Of a DNA stretch of 64,000 nt, positions 3,637-47,333 are shown piece by piece. The notes beneath the pieces were generated by a model, which saw only the letters and a program-made list of their open reading frames with translations, was not told the origin of the DNA and did no database searches. Source of the DNA: Cupriavidus necator N-1 (GTDB lineage: Bacteria > Pseudomonadota > Gammaproteobacteria > Burkholderiales > Burkholderiaceae); assembly GCF_000219215.1 (NCBI RefSeq), contig NC_015726.1, positions 3,038,001-3,102,000 on the forward strand, in the 5' to 3' direction. The stretch's first letter is position 1. Every line of letters starts with the position of its first letter. Made by a program: the position numbers and the translations under genes.

Positions 3637-3853
3637 GTTTCCCTGCCTGGTTCGTGAGGGTCATAAACTCCTTGAACCGATATGCATTGCATGGTGCGGG
3701 ATCATGTCGCGTGGGCGAGCGCGTCATCGCATTCATAGTCTGGGCCTGGCCTGGACTCCCTGAGTGGATGATGTACCCGAAATGCGACTTCCGCAGCCAC
3801 TCTGAACCTCACTTGGGTTCAGGATGCCGACCCAGCGGCCAAGGCGGGGACCC
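3637..3853 (+). ncRNA. ssrS: 6S RNA
   Basis: About 217 nt. The closing stem is visible: TTTCCCTGCCTGG at the 5' end pairs with CCAAGGCGGGGA at the 3' end with one bulge. The GGTTCGTGAGGGTC...CTCCTTGAACCGATA block matches the conserved 5' region, and TGCGACTTCCGCAGCC...CTTGGGTTCAGG matches the conserved 3' region of proteobacterial 6S RNA. 6S RNA mimics an open promoter and sequesters the sigma-70 RNA polymerase holoenzyme in stationary phase. Location directly after zapA agrees. Ends are approximate. Confidence 0.85.
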
Positions 3854-3856
3854 CTT

Positions 3857-36925: not shown

Positions 36926-37010
36926 GCCCGGGTGGTGAAACAGGTAGACGCAGGGGACTCAAAATCCCCCGCCGCAAGGCGTGTCGGTTCGAGTCCGACC
37001 CCGGGCACCA
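36926..37010 (+). tRNA. tRNA-Leu (anticodon CAA)
   Basis: 85 nt including the encoded CCA. Acceptor GCCCGGG pairs with CCCGGGC; the anticodon stem GGGGA/TCCCC holds loop CTCAAAA, giving anticodon CAA (reads UUG). A long class-II variable arm is present, and the T arm is GTCGGTTCGAGTCCGAC. tRNA-Leu genes are frequent integration sites; the accessory-looking polysaccharide cluster begins about 200 bp downstream. Confidence 0.97.
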
Positions 37011-37071
37011 TCAGCTTAGGCGCAAAGCCTTATCCCATAAGCCTTTCCGGGCAGTTCGGTGGTGTTTCTGT

Positions 37072-37094
37072 GGCAACTTCCGTGGTAAGTTGCC
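37072..37094. repeat. Hairpin downstream of tRNA-Leu
   Basis: GGCAACTT-CCGTGGT-AAGTTGCC: perfect 8-bp inverted repeat with a 7-nt loop. There is no T-run. It might be a remnant of an attachment region or a weak terminator for the tRNA. Confidence 0.5.
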
Positions 37095-37130
37095 CATGTT
37101 AATCAAACGCATCACCTTGAAATGCTGCCA

Positions 37131-37167
37131 CCAGCGCTCAGGGGTCTACCCCCCTCAGGAGCGCTGG
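37131..37167. terminator. Long hairpin between tRNA-Leu and the polysaccharide cluster
   Basis: CCAGCGCTC at 37131-37139 pairs with GAGCGCTGG at 37159-37167, and AGGGG with CCCCT inside, giving about 14 bp with a 3-nt bulge. Lies beyond the 3' end of the last gene of the minus-strand polysaccharide cluster, so it may be its transcription terminator; no T-run is visible. Confidence 0.5.
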
Positions 37168-37222
37168 ACGAGACCGCAGAGGCGGCGCTGTAGCGTCTGC
37201 ATGCCGGCAACCCCCTCTGCTT

Positions 37223-38032
37223 CTAAAGCGCGCTGCGCTCAATCCTCTCCCAACTCATTGCCCACCCATACAAGGCAATACACCCAAATACCAGCATCGT
37301 AGGCCCGAACACAAACGACAGCAGCGGCATCATCAACAGCGAACAGCTCACCATCAGATAAACGTGCAGTGCCAGCTGCATCGGCACCGCGATCATGACA
37401 AACACAAGCGTGAGCAGCGTCAGGAAGATCTTCTTAGGCCACGAGAAGTCAAAGATGTAGTAGACCAGCGCATGCGCCCACGGCAACAGAAACAAAAGGC
37501 TGGCGCAGGTCTTCACGCCGTTGTCCACATATCTGCTGGCCGTGTACGGAAAACTCTGCGGCGCCACCGCGAAGAACAGCAATGCCGTGGCCTCAATGAA
37601 CACGGCGAACAGCAGGAAGTACCGCAGCGGCAGGTACTGGTCCCGTATCCGCAACGCCATCAGGCAGACGGCGAGCGTCGCGATCAGCGTCACGGACCAG
37701 GTCAGTACGTCTGGCACCGGAGCAACGACGTTGGTGTAGGGCAGGTTGAAGTCGAACCATGCCACCCGCGTCAATTGTTCAATGACGACGCCATCCATGC
37801 CGAGCTTGTCGATCCAGAAGCGCAGCACTCCTGCCCATATCCCGCTGATATGGTCGCGCAGCATCCATTCGGCCACATTGAACGCCACGGGCACCAGCAG
37901 GACCCCCGCGAGTGCGGGGACGGACAGGGTCAGGTGGTCCAGCGAACGATGCCTGGCCAGGCACAGGATAGTCAGGCCAAGAGCGTTGCTCTGGTCGCGT
38001 GTGGCTGCGGTGTGCCCGGCAGGGTGCGTCAT
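37223..38032 (-). CDS. Polytopic membrane protein of the exopolysaccharide cluster
   Basis: 269 residues. About seven hydrophobic segments: one near 35-55, three between 125 and 175, and three in the C-terminal third (IFLTLLTLVFVMIAVPM, VSCSLLMMPLLSFVFG, MLVFGCIALYGWAM). No motif that I recognise. It is the last gene of the cluster; the start (38032) is 3 bp from the YaiO-like stop, so it is cotranslated. It could assist export or modify the polymer, but no function can be assigned. Confidence 0.72.
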   Translation of the reverse strand: MTHPAGHTAATRDQSNALGLTILCLARHRSLDHLTLSVPALAGVLLVPVAFNVAEWMLRDHISGIWAGVLRFWIDKLGMDGVVIEQLTRVAWFDFNLPYTNVVAPVPDVLTWSVTLIATLAVCLMALRIRDQYLPLRYFLLFAVFIEATALLFFAVAPQSFPYTASRYVDNGVKTCASLLFLLPWAHALVYYIFDFSWPKKIFLTLLTLVFVMIAVPMQLALHVYLMVSCSLLMMPLLSFVFGPTMLVFGCIALYGWAMSWERIERSAL

Positions 38033-38034
38033 GG

Positions 38035-38874
38035 CTAGAACTCCGCGAAGACCCCCACTTCTGCTTGCTTGCGCGTGTAGGAGGGGTTGTCGTAGTAAAT
38101 GGCGCGCAGGTTTATCCCATAGCGTTTGGTGAACCATTTGCGCCAGGTCAGCGAGACCTCATGGCTGTTGAAGTCGCTCAGCAGGGTCTGCGCGCCGGTG
38201 AGCTGGTAGGCTTCGCTGCCGCCGTCATATTTCAGGGTAATGTACTGGTCCTTGTCGCGGCCGTAGGTGACGGCGACGATGCCGCGATTGGAGCGGATAT
38301 TGCCGGGATCGCTGCGGTTCAGCCGCGCACCCAGCTGGACGATCCAGGGGGCGTCGAAATAGTAGGTCAGGCCGAGCAGCAAGGTCTTGTCGGTATAGAC
38401 CTCTTTGGCGCGGTAGTAGGTGAAGCCGGCGCTCACGACCAGGTTCTTCTTTTCGAGCAGTTTGCGGAACAGCATGCCGTCGGTTCGGAACTGGGGCAGG
38501 AAGAAGCCGCCCGCGCTGGTGCCGGCGCTCAGGAAGCCATACCAGTTCTCGTCAAAGGTGCGCGTGTAGCCCAGGCCGAAGAACGTGCCCTGGTCCCCGA
38601 AGTGGTTCTGGTGGCTGATTTCGCCGGTCACGTAGTCCTTCGGGGTGAAGTTGACCCCGCCTCGCAGGTACTGGTCGTTCCAGCTGGCATTGTCGCCGGT
38701 GAGGTTGGCGTGGCCGAGGCCGCCTTCAATGAAACCGGTGAGCAAGGGAGCGAACGTCCTGGGCGCGGTGGCTTCTGCCTGGGCGCGGACATCGGTGGCG
38801 GCAAGCAGTGCCAGCATGCCCAGAAGGGGCAGGGCCCGAGCGCCGTGGGTTCTGGTATCCGAGAGCTTCGCCAT
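38035..38874 (-). CDS. YaiO-family outer-membrane beta-barrel protein
   Basis: 279 residues. Signal peptide 1-32 ending DVRAQA. The mature protein is a series of amphipathic strands with regularly spaced aromatic residues (e.g. FIEGGLGHANLTGDN, YVTGEISHQNHFGDQGTFFGLGYT) and ends in Phe (VGVFAEF), the C-terminal signal for BAM-inserted barrels. It resembles YaiO-type barrels found next to polysaccharide synthases; a 12-16-strand export pore or anchor is the likely role. Immediately upstream of the membrane protein gene. Confidence 0.78.
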   Translation of the reverse strand: MAKLSDTRTHGARALPLLGMLALLAATDVRAQAEATAPRTFAPLLTGFIEGGLGHANLTGDNASWNDQYLRGGVNFTPKDYVTGEISHQNHFGDQGTFFGLGYTRTFDENWYGFLSAGTSAGGFFLPQFRTDGMLFRKLLEKKNLVVSAGFTYYRAKEVYTDKTLLLGLTYYFDAPWIVQLGARLNRSDPGNIRSNRGIVAVTYGRDKDQYITLKYDGGSEAYQLTGAQTLLSDFNSHEVSLTWRKWFTKRYGINLRAIYYDNPSYTRKQAEVGVFAEF

Positions 38875-39025
38875 GCGTATCCTGTCGATCGTGTCGATGT
38901 CGCACAGAGGGTCCCGCGAGGATCCTCCGGCCCGCAAGCTGCTGTTGAACCATACACTGCTTCGCAGTGAGCAGTCGATAATGCCTCCCTCGGTATTGGC
39001 GCGTTTCGCATGGACGTGATGCAAA

Positions 39026-40030
39026 TCAGCGACACCGCATGCCCGGGGAAGGTGGCGCCAGCGCCTGCTCCGGACTTAGGCGTGCCTCGAACGCCAGGTA
39101 CAGTGCCTCCTCCAAGACATTCCAGTGCTTGCCATGGCGGAACTGGATGGATCGTATGCGCCAGCACGCGATCGCGTCCTTGTCTCCCATCTTGTCGGCT
39201 ACCAGGGCCACCAGCCCCCAGGGGAAATCGACTTCGGACATCTGCAGCCAGGCCATGCGGTTCTCCTTCATCCACAAGTAGTAGGCCGCGGCATGGGGCC
39301 GGCTGGCCGGCTTGATATCGGCCAGGATGGGGAAGATCTGCGCTACGGCGTCGGGATAGAACGCCGCCTGGTCGCGTGGCTGGGTGCTGACCAGGTAGCC
39401 CTGGTTGGGGCGCCAGAACACGCGCAGGATGTCCTTGTCGAGTTGTTCGGCCTTGCGCATCCAGCCGGCGGCACCTACGGCGTCTCCGTGGCGCTGGCGA
39501 TAGTCGCTGGCGGCCTTGAAGGCGCTTGAGACTTCCACGTTGTCCATCAGCAGGGCCACCGGTAGCTTCGCCGAGATCAGGTAGACCCCGGAACCCGGGT
39601 CGCGCAGTGTGTCCAGGTGCCGGCTGGCCTTGTCGAAGCTGGCCTGCCACGCCGGGGGCATGCCCTTGGGCGGCGCGGAACGGACCAGCAGTTCCATCCA
39701 GGCCGCCATCAACGCGTCGTCGGCGTCAGCCTCCTGGCAGGAGACGAAGCGCTGGCCCTTCATGCAGTAGCGGTCGAAGCGGCCGTCGGCGAGCTGGCGC
39801 GGAAGCAGCCATGCGATCCAGCGGGTTGCGGCGGTTTTCGTGGTCATGCCCGCGTCTTGCGCGGCCAGCAGTGCCTTGGCTGCAAAGTAGGGATCGATCG
39901 AGTCGCCATTAAAGTAGGTCGTGATCGCCCCGTCGGGACGCTGGTAGTCAGCCAGCACAAGCTCGGCGGCGCCGGCCGGCTGGTGAACGCATGCGGCAAT
40001 CACGAGGAGCAGCGAAAGCAAGGTTTTCAT
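39026..40030 (-). CDS. Secreted putative (alpha/alpha)-barrel glycosidase of the exopolysaccharide cluster
   Basis: 334 residues. Signal peptide 1-21 (ending PAGAA). The mature part is rich in helices with acidic-aromatic motifs typical of six-hairpin (alpha/alpha)6 carbohydrate enzymes: DGAITTYFNGDSIDPYFAAKALLAA at about 34-58, CQEADADDALMAAWMELL, and LMDNVEVSSAFKAA. Acid pairs that might be catalytic are present, but I cannot place it in a named glycoside hydrolase family. A BcsZ- or PelA-like trimming enzyme acting in the periplasm is the contextual guess. Confidence 0.62.
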   Translation of the reverse strand: MKTLLSLLLVIAACVHQPAGAAELVLADYQRPDGAITTYFNGDSIDPYFAAKALLAAQDAGMTTKTAATRWIAWLLPRQLADGRFDRYCMKGQRFVSCQEADADDALMAAWMELLVRSAPPKGMPPAWQASFDKASRHLDTLRDPGSGVYLISAKLPVALLMDNVEVSSAFKAASDYRQRHGDAVGAAGWMRKAEQLDKDILRVFWRPNQGYLVSTQPRDQAAFYPDAVAQIFPILADIKPASRPHAAAYYLWMKENRMAWLQMSEVDFPWGLVALVADKMGDKDAIACWRIRSIQFRHGKHWNVLEEALYLAFEARLSPEQALAPPSPGMRCR

Positions 40031-40046
40031 GGTGTGCAGGGCTGTG

Positions 40047-41126
40047 TCATGGGCTGGCCACCAGGCCATCGGACACGACCCTTCCTTCCTCCGGGGCGCA
40101 CGCCGCGCCATGAACCACGGTACCGGCGCAGACGTGAAGCACCGGCGCCACCAGGGTAGTGCGCTTGTCCGCAGCGCCGATCGTGCAGCGCGCCCCGACA
40201 TCGATCTCGCGCTCGGCAGCCACCGGGCCGGCGATGACGCATTCACGGGCCACGGAAATGGTGCCCGCCGCAATCAGTGCGCCGTCGATGCGCACCCGCG
40301 CGCCCAGCCAGATGCTGCCACTTGCCTTGACGCTGCCGATAATGCGCGCGCCGGTGCCGAGCCACAGGTCGCCATGCACGACAAGGTCGCCGCGATACAG
40401 GGTGTTAGCGGGAAACGTCAGATCGCGCGTTACCAGCCAGCGGCCGTCAGCGGCTTCGTCGGGAGCCATGACGGCATGTGCCCAGTCTCCCCCCGCCGGG
40501 GCGGTGGCGTCCATGCCGGGCGGCGCGGCAAGGTGACGCGGCCCGAACCCGATCACCGCGGCGCTGACCGAGGTGAACTCGCATTCGTCTTCGAGGCGGA
40601 TCGAATACAGGGCGGAAACCGGTCCGAGCAAGCGGCACTGCGGCTCGACGTGGATGCTGCGCGCGTGTGCCCAGCGCTGCAGCTCGCTGGCGCCGCGCAT
40701 CAGGATCTCGCCTTCGGACAGCAGCACCTGCATGCGATTGAGCCGGCCTGTGGAGATCCCGCGCCGGCCGTAGATGTCGCGGGAGAACGTATAGTTGTCC
40801 GGTAGCACCAGCGATCCGCTGGTGACGATGGTGCGCGCGCAGACGCCGATGAACGCCTCCGCCGCCGTCGGCATGAACGTGCCGGTCACGTGGACGACAG
40901 GCCGCAAGGCGCTGACCGGGTGCGCCAGGCCATGCAGACCTGACGTCTCGTCCTGCCGCTCGACCATCGCGCGAAAGACCGCGGCCACGGCCGCAACGTC
41001 CAGCGTGTGTTCGCCATCGATCGCCAGCGGACGGATGTCGCGCCGGCGCCGCCATTCAAGCACCGCCGGCAGTAGCGGCAATGCGAAAACCAGCATGGTG
41101 AGAGTGCCTAGCAGCAAGGGCCACAC
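40047..41126 (-). CDS. Membrane-anchored bactofilin-like beta-helix protein
   Basis: 359 residues from a GTG at 41126, preceded by AGGAG inside the end of the glycosyltransferase gene; a GTG at 41165 is an alternative that overlaps that gene. A single N-terminal membrane segment (residues 2-20) is followed by a soluble region. The last 110 residues are right-handed beta-helix repeats (DLVVHGDLWLGTGARIIGSVKASGSIWLGARVRIDGAL and so on) resembling polymer-forming bactofilins or hexapeptide proteins. A scaffold that organises the synthase is a possible role. Such proteins are unusual inside polysaccharide operons. Confidence 0.68.
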   Translation of the reverse strand: MWPLLLGTLTMLVFALPLLPAVLEWRRRRDIRPLAIDGEHTLDVAAVAAVFRAMVERQDETSGLHGLAHPVSALRPVVHVTGTFMPTAAEAFIGVCARTIVTSGSLVLPDNYTFSRDIYGRRGISTGRLNRMQVLLSEGEILMRGASELQRWAHARSIHVEPQCRLLGPVSALYSIRLEDECEFTSVSAAVIGFGPRHLAAPPGMDATAPAGGDWAHAVMAPDEAADGRWLVTRDLTFPANTLYRGDLVVHGDLWLGTGARIIGSVKASGSIWLGARVRIDGALIAAGTISVARECVIAGPVAAEREIDVGARCTIGAADKRTTLVAPVLHVCAGTVVHGAACAPEEGRVVSDGLVASP

Positions 41127-41128
41127 GC

Positions 41129-42709
41129 TCAGCTCCTCTGTCGATAACGCGCTGTCTTGTCCCACCGCAGTTCGCGGCGGAGCAGGTAATCGAAAACGAT
41201 CTGGCCGATGATGGCGCGCGACACGGTCAGCATGCTGACCAGGAAGCCGAAATAATTCAGCGGCAGCAGGCGGATGCGTTCGCGGGTGCCATCCAGGTGC
41301 ACGGCCGCAGCGATCTCGAAGAAGGCGGCGAAGTTGCCCAGCGTCCCGTACGACATCAGCGCGAACAGGATCACGGCTTCACCGAACAACGGCAGGCCGC
41401 CGGCATAGAAGAGAAGGATCGCCAGCAGCCAGCCGAACAGCATCAGCGGCGCCATCATGTAGATGCCGAGCAGCGCCACGCCGTCGATCTTCTCGAACAG
41501 CCCGTGGTGCCGGCACGCTGCCATCTTCCAGCCGTGCCGATAGAGCGCCTGGTTGTGGCCCTTGGTCCAGCGCATGATCTGCCGCACCCGCACGGGCCAG
41601 GTCTCGGGCACCTCTTCATAGCACTCCGACCAGTTCTGGTAGACCGTCTTCCAGCTGGCCAGCAGCAGCCGGTAGGTCAGGTCGGTGTCTTCGGCCAGCA
41701 CATCGTCGTGCCAGCCGCCGACGCTGCGCAGCGCCCGCATCCTGACGCCGCCGACGGTGCCGCCATACTGGGGCACCAGGTCCAGGTTCATTCGGGCCTG
41801 CTGATCCACCTGGTAGCCGCCGGAGCGCTCCAGGTCGAGCAGCCGCGTCAGCAGGTTGCTGCCGAGGTTCATCGGCACCACGCGGCCCATGGTCGCGCCG
41901 ACTTCGGGGTCGAAGAACGGTGCCACCAGTTGCTTGAGCAGGCCCACCGGCGGCAGGTAGTCGGCATCGAACACGACAATGATGTCGCTGGCGACAGCGT
42001 CGCTCGCATCCTTGAGCGCGGCGGCCTTGCCGGGCTTGCCGCCGGTGCGGTGAAATGGGGTGATGCGTCCGGGGTACTGCTGCACGAAGTCGTCGATGAT
42101 CTCGCGCGTGCGGTCACAGGAGCGGTCGTTGACGGGCATGATGGTGAGCCGGTCGACGGGATAGTCCGCGTGCAGCAGGCACGTCAGCGAACCGGCGATC
42201 ACCGCCTCTTCGTTGTGCGCCGCGACCAGCACGGTCAGGGTGGGCCAGTCTGCGATATCGATGTCCAGGTACGGGTGGCGTTGCCTGCCGAACAGCCGGT
42301 TCAGCGTGAACAGGTAGTGGCGCACGGCATAGAAGATCACCAGGCCGACGATCAGCAACAGCATGACCGTCAGCGGCGGCACGATCGCCTGCGCGTCCTC
42401 GTGCAACGGCGCTTTCGGCGGCGCGGGCTTGGGCCAGGGGCGCGGGCGCAGCGCCGGCTCCCGCCGGCCATCGTCTTCCAGCGTGTCCGGCCTTGCCATC
42501 GCAACTTCCATCGCAGCGCTGCCGGGGTCGGAGTCAGCAAGCTTTACGGATTTTCTTGGCAGTGGTTTGAGGGCGGCTTCGGGGGCTCCGGATCCGCGGA
42601 CGAAGGCCTCTCCCCTCACGGGAGTTTCCGTGGCCTTCGCATCGGGCGCGGGCATGGTGAAGACCAGCAACCCGCTCAGTGAGAGGAACAGGCGATACGC
42701 CAGGCGCAT
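41129..42709 (-). CDS. GT2-family processive glycosyltransferase (polysaccharide synthase)
   Basis: 526 residues. The catalytic domain shows TLTVLVAAHNEEAVI at 157-171, the D-x-D FDADYLPP at 247-254, the acceptor acid EDTDL at 340-344 and QIMRW at 377-381, the Q-x-x-RW motif of processive cellulose/chitin/PNAG/hyaluronan-type synthases. Membrane segments lie at about 111-130 and as several C-terminal helices. The first 105 residues are unusual: a signal-like hydrophobic start, then a Pro/Arg-rich stretch. No PilZ domain is visible. The ATG at 42709 follows GGAGG by 9 nt; a TTG at 42715 is possible. Synthesises the polymer from a UDP-sugar at the inner membrane. Confidence 0.88.
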   Translation of the reverse strand: MRLAYRLFLSLSGLLVFTMPAPDAKATETPVRGEAFVRGSGAPEAALKPLPRKSVKLADSDPGSAAMEVAMARPDTLEDDGRREPALRPRPWPKPAPPKAPLHEDAQAIVPPLTVMLLLIVGLVIFYAVRHYLFTLNRLFGRQRHPYLDIDIADWPTLTVLVAAHNEEAVIAGSLTCLLHADYPVDRLTIMPVNDRSCDRTREIIDDFVQQYPGRITPFHRTGGKPGKAAALKDASDAVASDIIVVFDADYLPPVGLLKQLVAPFFDPEVGATMGRVVPMNLGSNLLTRLLDLERSGGYQVDQQARMNLDLVPQYGGTVGGVRMRALRSVGGWHDDVLAEDTDLTYRLLLASWKTVYQNWSECYEEVPETWPVRVRQIMRWTKGHNQALYRHGWKMAACRHHGLFEKIDGVALLGIYMMAPLMLFGWLLAILLFYAGGLPLFGEAVILFALMSYGTLGNFAAFFEIAAAVHLDGTRERIRLLPLNYFGFLVSMLTVSRAIIGQIVFDYLLRRELRWDKTARYRQRS

Positions 42710-42777
42710 GCTCAATGACCTCCGTCTATGTTTTCATCTTGGAGGCTGGCCGTGCTCCCCCAGCCAGCCCCTGCGCA

Positions 42778-44610
42778 TTACAGCTTGCCGGCGACGAATG
42801 CCAGCGAGGTGCCTCCTTGCGATGTCACGATCCAGTTGGCCGAATCCCATGTCACCGTGGCGAGTCCCTGCGTCACCACCGGCTGGGCATAGCCGGTGCG
42901 CGGCAGCACCCACGCCATGTCGGTCAGGTCGGTCGGGTGGCTGGCCTGGAACGACCATGCGTTGCCGGTATCGGTGGCCTGCCAGGTGGTCTGCTGGCGC
43001 CGCTGGCTGAACTGCGCCAGCGTATCCATCGTGTACCAGCTGAACAGTCCGCTTGCCTTCACGTTGTCCGCCTTGTTGAAGATGACGTTGAGCGTCTTCG
43101 GGTATTGGATAGCGCCCACCGGGTGCATGTAGATCAGCCGGCTGGTGCGGTTCTTCGCCACGAAATCGATCAGCTGCTTGTACCAGGTGTTGATGTCGGC
43201 CACGGGCACGTTGAATTCCTCGAACTCTTCGAACGTCGCGTACTGGCCGAACGGCATCACCGGGAAGGCGCGGATGGTGTTGTTCGTCAGCACGCCATTG
43301 CGATAGCTGCGCGTCGGCGCCATCCCGGTGTGGCCCAGGAAGTAGTAGCCGGTGTTGCCGTTGGCTTCGAGCCAGTTGAGCGACCACTGCGGCGTATTGC
43401 CTTCCGGCGCGGCGTACTCGACCGCGGCGCGTCCGGTCACGCCTTCGACGCTCTGCTTGTTCATCACCAGGTACTGTTCGAAGGTGGACTGGTTGGTCTC
43501 GCTGGCGTTGGCACCCCAGTAGTCGTGGATCCATCCGCCATGACTGCCGATCTTGTGTCCCTTCGATTGCAGGGACAGCATCAGATTCTTTGCCGCGGTG
43601 TTCTGCGACAGGTTGATGCCCTTGGCGTCGCCGAAGTTGATCTGGTCAGGGCCCGCAGTCACGGAAATGGAGAACGGGCTATTGCTACTGTCGAAGGTGC
43701 CCCAGGTATTCATTTCCGCCGCAGGCGCGATCTGGTCGCCGGCGCAGAAGTGCCAGTTCAGCACCAGCCCGCCGCGCGCCTTGGGCTGCGCCGAAAGCCG
43801 CGCCGTCTTCATCAGGTTGCCGCCGAAGTAGCGCAGGAAGCCGTGCATCAGCATGCCGTCGGTCTGTCCCTTCAGGTAGGCGAGCGGCAGGTTGACGAAC
43901 AGCACGCTGCCTGAGCCGAAGTTGCGCAGCCCTGCCACCAGCCCGAAGTTGGGCGACGTGATCAGCGCGGAGCCTGTATAGGTGCCCTGCGTGACGAAGC
44001 TCGGATAGATCAGGAAGCCATAGACGTAGCCCGAGATGCCTTCGATGGGAGGCGTCGTGCTCGCGTCCCACAACATCGACTTGCCCGGCGGCACCTGCAG
44101 CGTCCTGAGCGTGGTGCCCAGCGCGGTGATTGGCCCGACGCCGATCATGTTGCCGAGCAACTGGTCATAGAGCACGTAGTCGACGCCGGCAAGGTTGCTG
44201 AGCCGGCTCTTCTGCGGCGCGTAGAAGCCGGTAGGGGTCAGCGCGCCGAAGTCGTAGACCAGCATCAGCTTGCCGCCCTGGCTGGTGTAGGTCTCCAGCG
44301 CCGCGATCAGCGCATCGCTGGCCTTCACGTGCACTTGGTCCGGCAGGATCACGCCCGAGAACTGCGCCGGGGTCGTGCCTTGCTGGAACTGGGTGTCCGT
44401 GATGACGGTGATCTTCAGGCCTTCTTCCTGGGCCCCGTCGAGCCAGGCCGACACGCGCGGATCGGGAAGGGAGAAGCCGTCCGGCACCAGCAGTGCGATC
44501 TGATTGGTGGCGGCGTGCGAGATTGCCGGCAAAGCGAGCACCAGTGCCAGGCATAGCTGAAGCACCAGGACGCTGCTTCGCCGCAGCAGTGAATAGGATT
44601 GGTAGAGCAC
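42778..44610 (-). CDS. Secreted polysaccharide deacetylase-like protein
   Basis: 610 residues. Signal peptide 1-33. Residues 34-270 look like a class-I glutamine amidotransferase/ThuA-type alpha-beta domain (IALLVPDGF, KLMLVYDFG). From about 280 a NodB-like barrel begins: NWHFCAGD with His287 and Asp292, then IGSHGGWIHDYW with His357 and His362. The canonical TFDDG and H(S/T)xxHP motifs are degenerate, so metal use needs proof. The architecture recalls PelA, which couples a hydrolase region and a deacetylase domain in exopolysaccharide export. Immediately upstream of the glycosyltransferase. Confidence 0.72.
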   Translation of the reverse strand: MLYQSYSLLRRSSVLVLQLCLALVLALPAISHAATNQIALLVPDGFSLPDPRVSAWLDGAQEEGLKITVITDTQFQQGTTPAQFSGVILPDQVHVKASDALIAALETYTSQGGKLMLVYDFGALTPTGFYAPQKSRLSNLAGVDYVLYDQLLGNMIGVGPITALGTTLRTLQVPPGKSMLWDASTTPPIEGISGYVYGFLIYPSFVTQGTYTGSALITSPNFGLVAGLRNFGSGSVLFVNLPLAYLKGQTDGMLMHGFLRYFGGNLMKTARLSAQPKARGGLVLNWHFCAGDQIAPAAEMNTWGTFDSSNSPFSISVTAGPDQINFGDAKGINLSQNTAAKNLMLSLQSKGHKIGSHGGWIHDYWGANASETNQSTFEQYLVMNKQSVEGVTGRAAVEYAAPEGNTPQWSLNWLEANGNTGYYFLGHTGMAPTRSYRNGVLTNNTIRAFPVMPFGQYATFEEFEEFNVPVADINTWYKQLIDFVAKNRTSRLIYMHPVGAIQYPKTLNVIFNKADNVKASGLFSWYTMDTLAQFSQRRQQTTWQATDTGNAWSFQASHPTDLTDMAWVLPRTGYAQPVVTQGLATVTWDSANWIVTSQGGTSLAFVAGKL

Positions 44611-44695
44611 GGTCTTCTCCCAGCGCGATGACTACAAGTTGCCTCGGCGTGCAAGACGCTGCGGCGCATCGACGTACGCGAGCATGCAGAGCCCG

Positions 44696-45043
44696 TCAGT
44701 CCGGCTCGGCTCCAGGCGCCGGCGCGAGCGTGTATGTGCCCGCCTTCACCTTGGCTCCGGCCTTTAGCTTCTTGGGCTTCTTCGCCTTCAGCTCATCCTT
44801 GAGGGCCTTGAGGGTTGCCTTGCTCTTGCCCTTCTCCGCCTCGTACGCAAAGTCGATCTGGAAGCTGTGGTCATAGCCCAGCAGCCCGCCGGGATCCGCC
44901 GGACTCGCGGGGAGATAGAGCGGGGTCTCGGCCGCGGCCGCAGCGGCGTCCGCGGTCAGGGCGGCATGGGCGGCGGGTGCCGATGCCAGGACACCCGCGA
45001 CAGCAAGCGCGGTTGCCGCTGCTGCAATACGTGAGAGCCTCAT
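44696..45043 (-). CDS. Small secreted Lys-rich protein
   Basis: 115 residues. Signal peptide 1-27 (ending AAHA), then a short Ala-rich region, the segment PASPADPGGLLGYDHSFQIDFAYEAEKGK, and a strongly basic stretch of Lys-Ala-Leu repeats at about 74-103. It has a good ribosome-binding site (CAGGAGC). No family recognised. A polycationic tail next to a deacetylase and synthase suggests binding to an anionic or cell-surface polymer (inference). Confidence 0.65.
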   Translation of the reverse strand: MRLSRIAAAATALAVAGVLASAPAAHAALTADAAAAAAETPLYLPASPADPGGLLGYDHSFQIDFAYEAEKGKSKATLKALKDELKAKKPKKLKAGAKVKAGTYTLAPAPGAEPD

Positions 45044-45122
45044 TGCCTTTGCTCCTGCTTATAGAGCGGCCAGACAGAAGTTGAACTTTTGCGCTGAACC
45101 GCTGGTTTAGCTTGGTGCTGCG

Positions 45123-46307
45123 CTACAGGCTGACGACGCCGGCATCGACCGACGCATCGCCGCACTCCGCATACGTGTCCGGGCGTTCCGCCAGCAAGGC
45201 AACGACAATGCGTTCGCTGGCGTGGCCGTCGCCGAACGGGTTGTGGGCGCGCGACATGCAGGCGTATTCCTCGGGGTCGTTCAGCAGCCGCTCCGCGGCG
45301 GCGATGAGGCGTTCCGGGTCCGTGCCCACCAGGCGCGCGGTGCCGGCGGCCAACGCTTCGGGCCGCTCGGTGGTTTCTCGCGTCACCAGGACCGGCTTGC
45401 CCAGGGCCGGCGCCTCTTCCTGAATGCCGCCGGAATCGGTGACGATCAGGTAGGCGCGCGACATCAGGAACACGAAAGGCAGGTAATCCTGGGGCTCGAT
45501 CAGGTGGATGTTCGGGTGTCCGCTCAGGATCGCGTGCACGGGCTCCTGCACGTGGGGGTTGAGGTGCACCGGATAGATGATCTGGATATCCGCATTGCGG
45601 TCAGCCAGCATGCGCAGCGCCGTGAACAGGCGCTCGAACGGCGGGCCGAAGTTCTCGCGCCGGTGTCCGGTCACCAGCACCAGCCGCCGCGATTCGTCGA
45701 GGAAGGGGTACTGGCCGGCCAGCCGGCACCGCATGTCCGCATCGGCGTCCAGCCAGCCCTTGACCTGGAGCAGGGCATCGATACCGGTGTTACCGGTCAG
45801 GCTGATGCGGACCGGATCGACGCCTTCGCGCAACAGGGTTTCCTGTGCCTGCCGCGTTGGCGCGAAATGCCAGGACGCCATCACGTCGGTCACGCGCCGG
45901 TTCATCTCTTCCGGCCAGGGGGCACTTAGATTGCCGGTGCGCAGTCCCGCTTCGACGTGTCCGATGGCCACATTGCGATAGAACGCGGCGAGCGTGGCGG
46001 CGAGCGTGGTGGTGGTGTCGCCATGGACCAGCATGGCATCGGGCAGGAAGCGATCCAGCACCGAGTGAACGCCCGAAAGCACACGCGTCGTAATGTCGGA
46101 CAGGCTCTGACCCTGGCTGATGACGTTGAGGTCGAAGTCCGGCGCGATCTCGAAGAGCCGCAGTACCTGGTCTAGCATCTGCCGGTGCTGGCCGGTCACG
46201 CAGACCCGCAGGTCGAAACTGCCCGACTCCCTGAGCCGATGAATCAGCGGTGCCATTTTGATGGCCTCAGGGCGGGTCCCGAATACAGCCAGAACTTTCT
46301 TCGGCAT
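45123..46307 (-). CDS. wecB: UDP-N-acetylglucosamine 2-epimerase (non-hydrolysing)
   Basis: 394 residues. [20 protein letters not shown] at 3-22 is the family opening; [38 protein letters not shown] and [30 protein letters not shown] are the other signature blocks with the catalytic acids. Interconverts UDP-GlcNAc and UDP-ManNAc in the cytosol. First gene of the cluster, so it probably provides UDP-ManNAc for the GT2 synthase. The start at 46307 opens the conserved N-terminus; an upstream in-frame start lacks support. Confidence 0.93.
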
Positions 46308-47333
46308 GTGGGTCTCTCTCGGCTCGCAAGGATTCTTGCCGGTGCGTTGGCTGGCGACTGCTTTCGATCGCCTGGTCCTCACGTTCCTGCAGGAATGGCG
46401 CCGTGGCTTGCGTCAGCCAACCTGATCGGCGCTTCGTGATGTCCCGGACGTGCACACCACGACGTAGGAGAGCGACGCCTGTGCCATCGGGCTGTAGCCC
46501 ATTGAATTCATTGGGAATTCTTCGATGTCGACAAGAGCAAGCGCCGACCTCGGACGCTCTTGCGGTTGCAGAGTTGTTACTTATTCCGCCACGCCCGTCG
46601 GGATAACGACCTCAACGCGTGGCCAATGCTGCACCGCACAGGACTTCACCTCCGCGATAAGTGGCATTGGAGGCGGCGGGCGCCATGGACGCTTCGCCAT
46701 GTCGGGTATCGGGTGCCGCGGCTGGGAGTGCACCACGCTTGTTGCGACCTTGCCGGTGTGATAACGGGTCAGGATGAGAGCGGTGGGAAGGGTGGGCGAC
46801 AAATGGAGCGGCTTAATCCGGCGGCCTAGGCCAAAAAGTTGATTGACGCGGGGAAGGCATTATGCAGTAGCCATGAAACTCATTCATTTGGCTCAGGCTG
46901 GTAGGAATGAGCCTGCCCGGCTGAGAGGTTTCAAGAATGAAACATCGCGCAGATCAGTATTAAATTAAATTAATAACATCGTTAACAATGCTGATTTGTG
47001 CTCTTTTATGCGCACGAGATGTTACTGCCATTTCTGTCAGAAATTAGGGAAATGAAAAAGCGGCCGGCAGCCCGATGCCCGGCGGCCCGGCAGGCCGGCA
47101 TCAGAGCCGCCCGCCGGTCGCGGCCTTGCGGCTTCTCCACTCAATCCAGCTTGGCCGCCTTGGCGTCAAATATCACATTAAGGTAGGCGTCCTGCCATAT
47201 TGGCAGGCCCGGTCTTCATCAGGTGTCATACGCGCCACTTTCACGCCAAACCTGTCGGACGGCGCCCACTGGCGCGCCCTCGCCCGGCTTCCTATCCTAT
47301 GGCATTGCCAACCCCCCGTTCCCGGAGCAACCC
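46308..47333. other. 1-kb non-coding control region of the exopolysaccharide cluster
   Basis: No convincing gene on either strand. It holds a near-palindrome CCCATTGAATTCATTGGG at 46498-46515 and a sigma-54-like GG-N10-GC element on the minus strand at 46471-46486. There are GTTTC/GAAAC and GGCTCA/TGAGCC hairpins near 46,880-46,945, and an AT-rich tract with TTAAATTAAATTAATAAC at about 46,960. Separates the divergent wecB operon from the M48 lipoprotein gene. Confidence 0.5.
46471..46486 (-). promoter_or_regulatory. Sigma-54-type promoter candidate for the exopolysaccharide operon
   Basis: On the minus strand, TGGCACAGGCGTCGCT has the invariant GG and GC dinucleotides 10 bp apart and a good TGGCAC -24 box; the -12 box is weaker. 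Transcription would begin about 150 nt before wecB. Unproven; such matches also occur by chance. Confidence 0.3.

Follow-up and report, generated by a model that had tools for sequence, protein, structure and literature searches.

What does the eight-gene cluster beside a tRNA-Leu gene of Cupriavidus necator N-1 make, and how did it come to be there? The window analyzed is a stretch of 64,000 nucleotides (assembly GCF_000219215.1, contig NC_015726.1, positions 3,038,001 to 3,102,000), and all positions below are counted from its first letter unless another record is named. In the genome collection used, the window is G000:C3:3038001-3102000, and the genome G000 measures 8.48 Mb. The cluster occupies 37223-46307. 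The open reading frame (ORF) listing contains eight consecutive minus-strand ORFs there, all with open frames, at the same coordinates as in a first-pass annotation made from the letters, which had proposed an exopolysaccharide synthesis and export cluster. Profiles, structural models and gene neighbourhoods support that proposal. The favoured reading, with a probability of about 0.6, is a horizontally acquired, self-contained system for a synthase-dependent, partly de-N-acetylated exopolysaccharide based on N-acetylmannosamine (ManNAc).

Systems for synthase-dependent exopolysaccharides follow a standard plan, in which a glycosyltransferase family 2 (GT2) synthase works with a deacetylase in the periplasm, a hydrolase and a barrel in the outer membrane. 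The computations show which genes are present, their predicted folds and conserved residues, how the set recurs and where it was inserted; the activities, the ManNAc sugar, its linkage, the direction of export and a role in biofilms are inferred. WecB would convert uridine diphosphate (UDP)-N-acetylglucosamine (UDP-GlcNAc) to UDP-ManNAc; the GT2 synthase would polymerise UDP-ManNAc and extrude the chain across the inner membrane. The bactofilin-like protein (gene 5) and the multi-pass protein (gene 8) may serve as scaffold or as partners of the synthase. Once in the periplasm, the polymer would lose some of its N-acetyl groups to the PelA-like enzyme and its detached small domain and so become cationic. 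The (alpha/alpha)6 protein may trim or clear this polymer, and the YaiO barrel would export it.

The genes are spaced as in an operon: gene 5 overlaps gene 4, and gaps of 16, 151 and 2 nt precede genes 6, 7 and 8, whose preferred start codons lie at 40030, 38874 and 38032, respectively. Pfam and NCBIfam gave good names for genes 1, 4 and 7, in agreement with the earlier WecB, GT2 synthase and YaiO calls. The names were weak for genes 3 and 5, and nothing useful was returned for genes 2, 6 and 8, none of which had a match in the Pfam scan.

The epimerase, the synthase and the polymer sugar

Gene 1 (45123-46307, minus strand) is a predicted wecB, encoding a non-hydrolysing UDP-GlcNAc 2-epimerase for the supply of UDP-ManNAc. 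Its score for TIGR00236 is 495 bits against a cut-off of 210.15. It keeps the residues matching K15, D95, E117, E131 and H213 of E. coli WecB, which we take to be the catalytic residues. Related loci were collected by one pattern scan of 84,980 genomes, which gave 45 loci; eight more were added, making 53. The synthase is present in 40 of the 53, which represent 39 distinct loci (L117 and L032 are one contig). All 40 also carry wecB, including those with another gene order or strand. The active-site residues of WecB are kept in 42/42 loci (His in 41/42, with one gap), and four further WecB proteins from related loci all pass TIGR00236. No match to E. coli WecC was found at E 1e-10 among ORFs of at least 200 residues in the 53 loci, some of which are short. 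Because WecB is fixed in these loci and no WecC match accompanies it, the sequences point to UDP-ManNAc as the probable donor; ManNAc as the polymer sugar is presumed. The earlier suggestion of a poly-ManNAc-type polymer thus gains support from the recurrence of wecB, its intact catalytic residues, the lack of a WecC match and a second wecB in the genome.

The second copy (G000:C3:2955524-2956636, L119) is 45% identical and passes TIGR00236. It sits among glycosyltransferases and a mannose-1-phosphate guanylyltransferase. With this second copy present, the wecB of the cluster is not the sole supply. In three other loci (L006:8234-9492, L009 and L013), wecB is broken into two or three segments that lie in different frames, by frameshift or sequencing error.

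Gene 4 (41129-42715, minus strand) encodes a predicted processive-type GT2 polymer synthase. It matches GT2 profile families and contains D197, DAD (250-252), ED (342-343) and the QxxRW motif already noted in the first-pass annotation (379-383). These canonical motifs are kept in 39-40 of the 40 loci, and the exceptions are gaps. The synthase is also the most conserved core part, with a median identity of 61% in 13 distant loci against 29-43% for the others. Its best NCBIfam match is PgaC/IcaA, at 110 bits far below the cut-off of 422; TIGR03030 (CelA, cellulose synthase) scores 45 bits and does not reach its cut-off of 699. The matches among PDB sequences are GT2 enzymes, including cellulose synthases. 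When four E. coli glycosyltransferases were compared with the family profile, PgaC scored 119 bits, YaiP 48, NfrB 15 and ArnC 14. BLAST with gene 4 of the window gave the same order for PgaC (E 3e-26, 24% identity over 406 residues), YaiP (7e-7) and NfrB (0.064).

This nearness to PgaC, both among the four E. coli proteins and in NCBIfam, is what an alternative polymer would predict: one based on GlcNAc, similar to poly-N-acetylglucosamine (PNAG), or mixed GlcNAc/ManNAc, with WecB only adjusting sugar pools or supplying a minor residue. The amino-sugar precursor gene glmS neighbours the cluster at 14 of these loci: 12 Burkholderia, one relative and one Cupriavidus (L009), of which the 13 Burkholderia-type loci are effectively one lineage. 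It speaks for the favoured reading but would fit any amino-sugar polymer. However, wecB persists in all of the synthase loci despite rearrangements, and an epimerase that only adjusted pools would not have to be fixed. The core set also showed no second polymer synthase. The GlcNAc-based or mixed polymer is the most probable of the alternatives, and it is considered unlikely.

The deacetylase and its detached domain

Gene 3 (42778-44610, minus strand) encodes a predicted PelA-like deacetylase without the hydrolase domain. Its model consists of an alpha/beta domain (about 31-270), a carbohydrate esterase family 4 (CE4) domain (about 277-540) and a beta-rich end (about 541-610). The predicted fold aligns to residues 278-847 of Pseudomonas PelA (9cgy), that is, to all but the hydrolase domain. 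The PelA-style label given earlier is thus borne out by the fold, and the CE4 profile match is weak (Polysacc_deac_1, E 3e-4, below cut-off). The residues H287, H362 and H496 are conserved in 62/62 deacetylase rows. Candidates for the CE4 metal triad, with the residue equivalence presumed, are H357 (57/62), H362 (62/62) and position 289, which is Asp in 26 rows and Cys in 36; gene 3 itself has C289. As this position is restricted to Asp or Cys in the 62 rows, it looks like the result of selection. The alignment of the deacetylase profile with E. coli ArnD by hhalign had a probability of only 13%, so the assignment of H287 and C289 to the usual catalytic positions is tentative. The same profile had no match among PDB sequences. 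In the Foldseek search, the first 47 rows were glycoside hydrolase families GH164, GH42 and related enzymes, none of them deacetylases. By sequence, the closest deacetylase among the matches listed is from C. necator (94% identical).

Gene 2 (44696-45043, minus strand) encodes a small, secreted, Lys-rich protein. The first-pass annotation listed it as a separate part, which was a misreading. In an alignment of 17 deacetylases, an insert of about 100 residues, carried by the relatives near residue 183, is missing from the proteins of the Cupriavidus type. A profile was built from nine of the small proteins, with one small ORF (L011) left out, and was searched against 120 deacetylases at a threshold of E < 1e-3 (E-values for 120 targets). 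It matched 90 of 95 long deacetylases (at least 640 residues), with the best stretch within residues 174-344, and none of 25 short deacetylases or 600 shuffled controls. The five long proteins without a match are P0090, P0091, P0102, P0104 and P0114. Judged by these profile matches, gene 2 is the detached insert domain of the deacetylase. The small gene stands beside a short deacetylase in 9/9 Cupriavidus loci of the pattern scan. Among 20 Cupriavidus copies, whose genomes overlap with those nine loci, it is present in 17/17 of the close type and 0/3 of the type that is about 40% identical. The insert domain is not universal, because the short first deacetylase copies of Sphaerotilus have no match to the profile.

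The 13 loci without a synthase include eight lone deacetylase copies with long flanks; the other five are short or edge contigs. Lone copies far from any synthase were noted at L021, L026-L029 and L031, and four of these six have a recognisable small-protein insert. Several lone copies occur in Burkholderia genomes that also have the full cluster (one B. cenocepacia assembly, for example, has both L016 and L028).

The bactofilin-like protein, the hydrolase-like barrel, the exporter and gene 8

Gene 5 (40047-41165, minus strand) encodes an N-terminal hydrophobic helix followed by a beta-helix that is bactofilin-like according to the alignment and to weak Pfam Bactofilin matches (E 0.002, and 3.2e-6 for the relative in L036, both below cut-off). 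The earlier description as a membrane beta-helix protein therefore stands as membrane-anchored and bactofilin-like, with a family match below the cut-off.

Gene 6 (39026-40030, minus strand) encodes a secreted, glycosidase-like protein with a predicted (alpha/alpha)6-barrel. The model is a helical barrel with a mean predicted local distance difference test score of 93, and most of the structures that match it are (alpha/alpha)6 glycosidases, in line with the putative (alpha/alpha) hydrolase of the first-pass annotation. Foldseek placed the Listeria hydrolase PssZ at ranks 23 and 25 and matched the GH126 structures 3ren and 6r2m, along with many other families. These ranks do not single out PssZ or CPF_2247, because both fall outside the 50 entries shown by the VIA structure comparison. 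The only match of the gene 6 profile among PDB sequences was 2okx (E 0.5).

Gene 7 (38035-38874, minus strand) encodes a YaiO-family outer-membrane beta-barrel and putative exporter, at 219.8 bits well above the TIGR04390 cut-off of 32. Gene 8 (37223-38032, minus strand) encodes a predicted multi-pass inner-membrane protein. A search gave 39 proteins at E 1e-3 or better, and a PWxH...Y motif is conserved in the alignment of the family; none of 15 members had a Pfam match, and no PDB match was found. A defence role for the cluster was also checked and not seen: five of the eight proteins were queried in PADLOC, with zero matches.

Recurrence across genomes

A search of similar neighbourhoods, as suggested in the first-pass annotation, showed that the gene set recurs as a module in the 40 synthase loci. 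At a tblastn threshold of E 1e-4, these contain wecB (40), the deacetylase (40), the bactofilin-like protein (39), YaiO (39), gene 8 (38) and the hydrolase (37); the small gene or a match to the insert is present in 14. Missing core parts are confined to a short contig (L011) or to the most distant loci (L045 and L050). The gene order varies among Cupriavidus, Burkholderia, Sphaerotilus and another genus of the family, and in the loci of Burkholderia and Polaromonas wecB faces the other way, on the opposite strand. The gene set is beyond chance, because it recurs in other genera; the differing orders and the opposite-strand wecB of Burkholderia indicate that its linkage is not the mere inheritance of one arrangement. 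The median identities of the best aligned piece in the 13 distant loci (n = 11-13 per part) are 61% for the synthase, 43% for WecB, 40% for the deacetylase, 32% for YaiO and 29-30% for the others.

The occurrence is patchy. Of 60 Cupriavidus genomes, 17 carry the cluster, and in two of these only the 40% type is present. The cluster was found in at least 32 of 299 genomes in the family and in at least 4 of 398 in the phylum, this genome included. The last two values are lower bounds, as two or three first-look candidates were scored per genome. Plasmid occurrence was seen in one record only. At L030:12172-13467, an ORF of 432 residues lies between the deacetylase and the hydrolase; it has no Pfam match and has BLAST relatives in seven other loci. 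Neighbours with a GGDEF motif occur at 6 of the 40 loci, five of them in Sphaerotilus/Leptothrix. Pfam confirmed GGDEF in both loci checked (L043 and L048) and also EAL in L043. These neighbours are too few, so regulation by cyclic dimeric GMP (c-di-GMP) is not claimed.

The retention of the bactofilin-like part in 39/40 loci might also suit a cell-bound structural glycan, sheath-like or on the surface, which this protein would anchor instead of a biofilm polymer being released. Cupriavidus and Burkholderia are not known to be sheathed. All seven core genes are present in five loci of Sphaerotilus/Leptothrix, which are sheath-forming according to the available part of PMC13386937. It was these clusters that raised the sheath hypothesis. 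Of two published sheath genes, lthB and sthA, the comparison covered lthB, a GT8 gene according to a reference title in PMC13386937 and hence not this GT2 synthase. As sheath sugars, the available part of PMC11087309 names glucose, glucuronic and galacturonic acid, galactosamine, glucosamine and 'N-acetylgalactose', with no ManNAc. Such a structural role is therefore improbable. At five Sphaerotilus/Leptothrix loci (L037, L039, L040, L043 and L044), the deacetylase is present two or three times and bactofilin-like stretches twice, with ORFs bearing a GGDEF motif alongside. Least probable of all is a decayed or unused island with a pseudo-enzyme as deacetylase and no product, which would fit the change of Asp to Cys at 289 and the patchy occurrence, but not the eight open frames, the strict Asp/Cys alternation at that position, or the synthase and WecB motifs that are intact in nearly all loci.

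Insertion at the tRNA-Leu gene

The cluster most likely was acquired at the tRNA-Leu(CAA) gene (36926-37010, plus strand). The first-pass annotation had suspected acquisition from this position, and both the tRNA gene and empty sites were confirmed. In two related genomes (L073 and L074) that lack the cluster at this site, the similarity to the window ends at 37012, two bases past the 3' end of the tRNA gene, and resumes at 47251; they have a native stretch of 110 and 130 bases there, respectively. The genome of L074 holds the cluster on another contig. Relative to these empty sites, the inserted stretch carrying the eight genes is 10.2 kb (37013-47250). Its G+C content is 63.9%, lower than that of the two 10-kb flanks (67.6% and 68.8%). 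Among 39 Cupriavidus genomes with both flanks on one contig, the gap between the flanking genes measures 0.45 to 26 kb, with 27 genomes below 3 kb. These 39 include 15 of the 17 carriers (G042 and G045 are outside the comparison); the deacetylase lies in the gap in G000 and G037 and elsewhere in the other 13. As the gap varies widely and relatives show empty sites, the tRNA-Leu(CAA) gene marks a hotspot for insertions. None of the eight genes encodes an integrase, and a comparison of the two junction regions gave no exact direct repeat of at least 10 bases.

Comparison with known systems

By the features tested, the locus is not Pel, PNAG or Nfr. Comparison suggests that its closest functional parallels are Pss of Listeria monocytogenes and NGR of E. 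coli. Pss, as described in the available parts of PMC6307706 and PMC7479077, is similarly an amino-sugar polymer, of beta-1,4-ManNAc with galactose. PssB is its dedicated deacetylase, and its hydrolase PssZ folds as an (alpha/alpha)6-barrel; the Pss text of those parts names neither YaiO nor a bactofilin-like protein nor gene 8. Unlike the present locus, the Listeria system is Gram-positive and has no outer-membrane barrel.

NGR (NfrA/NfrB/WecB, the phage N4 receptor) needs WecB, which has its counterpart here in the adjacent wecB, and it has a GT2-like synthase and a postulated ManNAc polymer; according to the available part of PMC8669472, ManNAc was postulated because WecB alone of the enterobacterial common antigen (ECA) pathway was required. 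The same part describes an Achromobacter cluster of nfrA, nfrB, wecB and further genes, a different set from this locus. In contrast to gene 4, for which the Pfam scan gave GT2 families only, NfrB bears a c-di-GMP MshEN domain. NfrB is also remote from it, with a profile score no better than that of ArnC, which has an unrelated role. NfrA combines tetratricopeptide repeats (TPR) with a 16-strand porin, whereas gene 7 is a YaiO protein and no TPR family was found among the eight proteins. Moreover, E. coli wecB lies in the ECA operon. The NfrA/NfrB/WecB analogy drawn in the first-pass annotation thus holds for the presumed use of WecB, but not for the synthase, which is nearer to PgaC than to NfrB, or for the porin.

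The locus resembles Pel in the architecture of the PelA deacetylase, which is present in gene 3. It differs in that no N-terminal PelA hydrolase domain is found in the gene 3 model, the synthase is GT2, and the glycosidase-like protein is separate and of another fold. The synthase of Pel is PelF, presumably a GT4 enzyme; profiles found no GT4 glycosyltransferase among the eight proteins, the search for pel being confined to this locus. The PNAG system (PgaABCD) likewise has a GT2 synthase, to which gene 4 is related. However, gene 4 is below the PgaC cut-off and YaiO takes the place of PgaA; no protein in the whole genome is above the PgaC_IcaA cut-off. The earlier statement that the cluster is not recognisable as Pel, PNAG or cellulose agrees with the features tested, but the deacetylase is more PelA-like than "not Pel" suggests.

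The yaiS-yaiP-yaiX-yaiO operon of E. coli has a similar order of deacetylase, GT2, left-handed beta-helix protein and YaiO. Both E. coli YaiO and gene 7 pass TIGR04390 and are the only such pair to share a family model, yet BLAST does not align them (E 0.11), and the beta-helix link to gene 5 is weak (hhalign probability 76% over 50 columns). YaiS is of the PIG-L type, YaiX is acetyltransferase-like, and YaiP is only distantly similar to gene 4; no wecB, hydrolase or gene 8 is annotated in the stretches of the operon examined. The psc1 cluster of Rubrivivax was similar by keywords, but the wecB/deacetylase pair is annotated in a PEP-CTERM-type cluster in the available part of PMC3684757. No published description of the gene set was found in the open-licence literature, searched mostly by title and abstract; its absence from print is not established.

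It is possible, though the odds fall somewhat short of even, that these loci form an undescribed mobile Gram-negative class: a deacetylated poly-ManNAc system that brings its own epimerase and a synthase akin to PgaC, exports through a TPR-less YaiO barrel, supplies one deacetylase domain in trans in Cupriavidus, and has a Cys-for-Asp deacetylase metal site in part of the family. If so, the YaiO family and several proteins of no known role would be assigned a system, and a likely ManNAc-type cationic polymer would join the small list of synthase-dependent biofilm polymers. The question of ManNAc could be tested here, where the epimerase is within the operon, whereas NGR shares it with ECA. With clusters in Burkholderia, Sphaerotilus and Leptothrix, the system might bear on biofilms, on the formation of flocs and perhaps on sheathed bacteria.

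Elsewhere in the window, a 6S RNA (Rfam RF00013, 49.4 bits) lies on the plus strand at 3637-3854.

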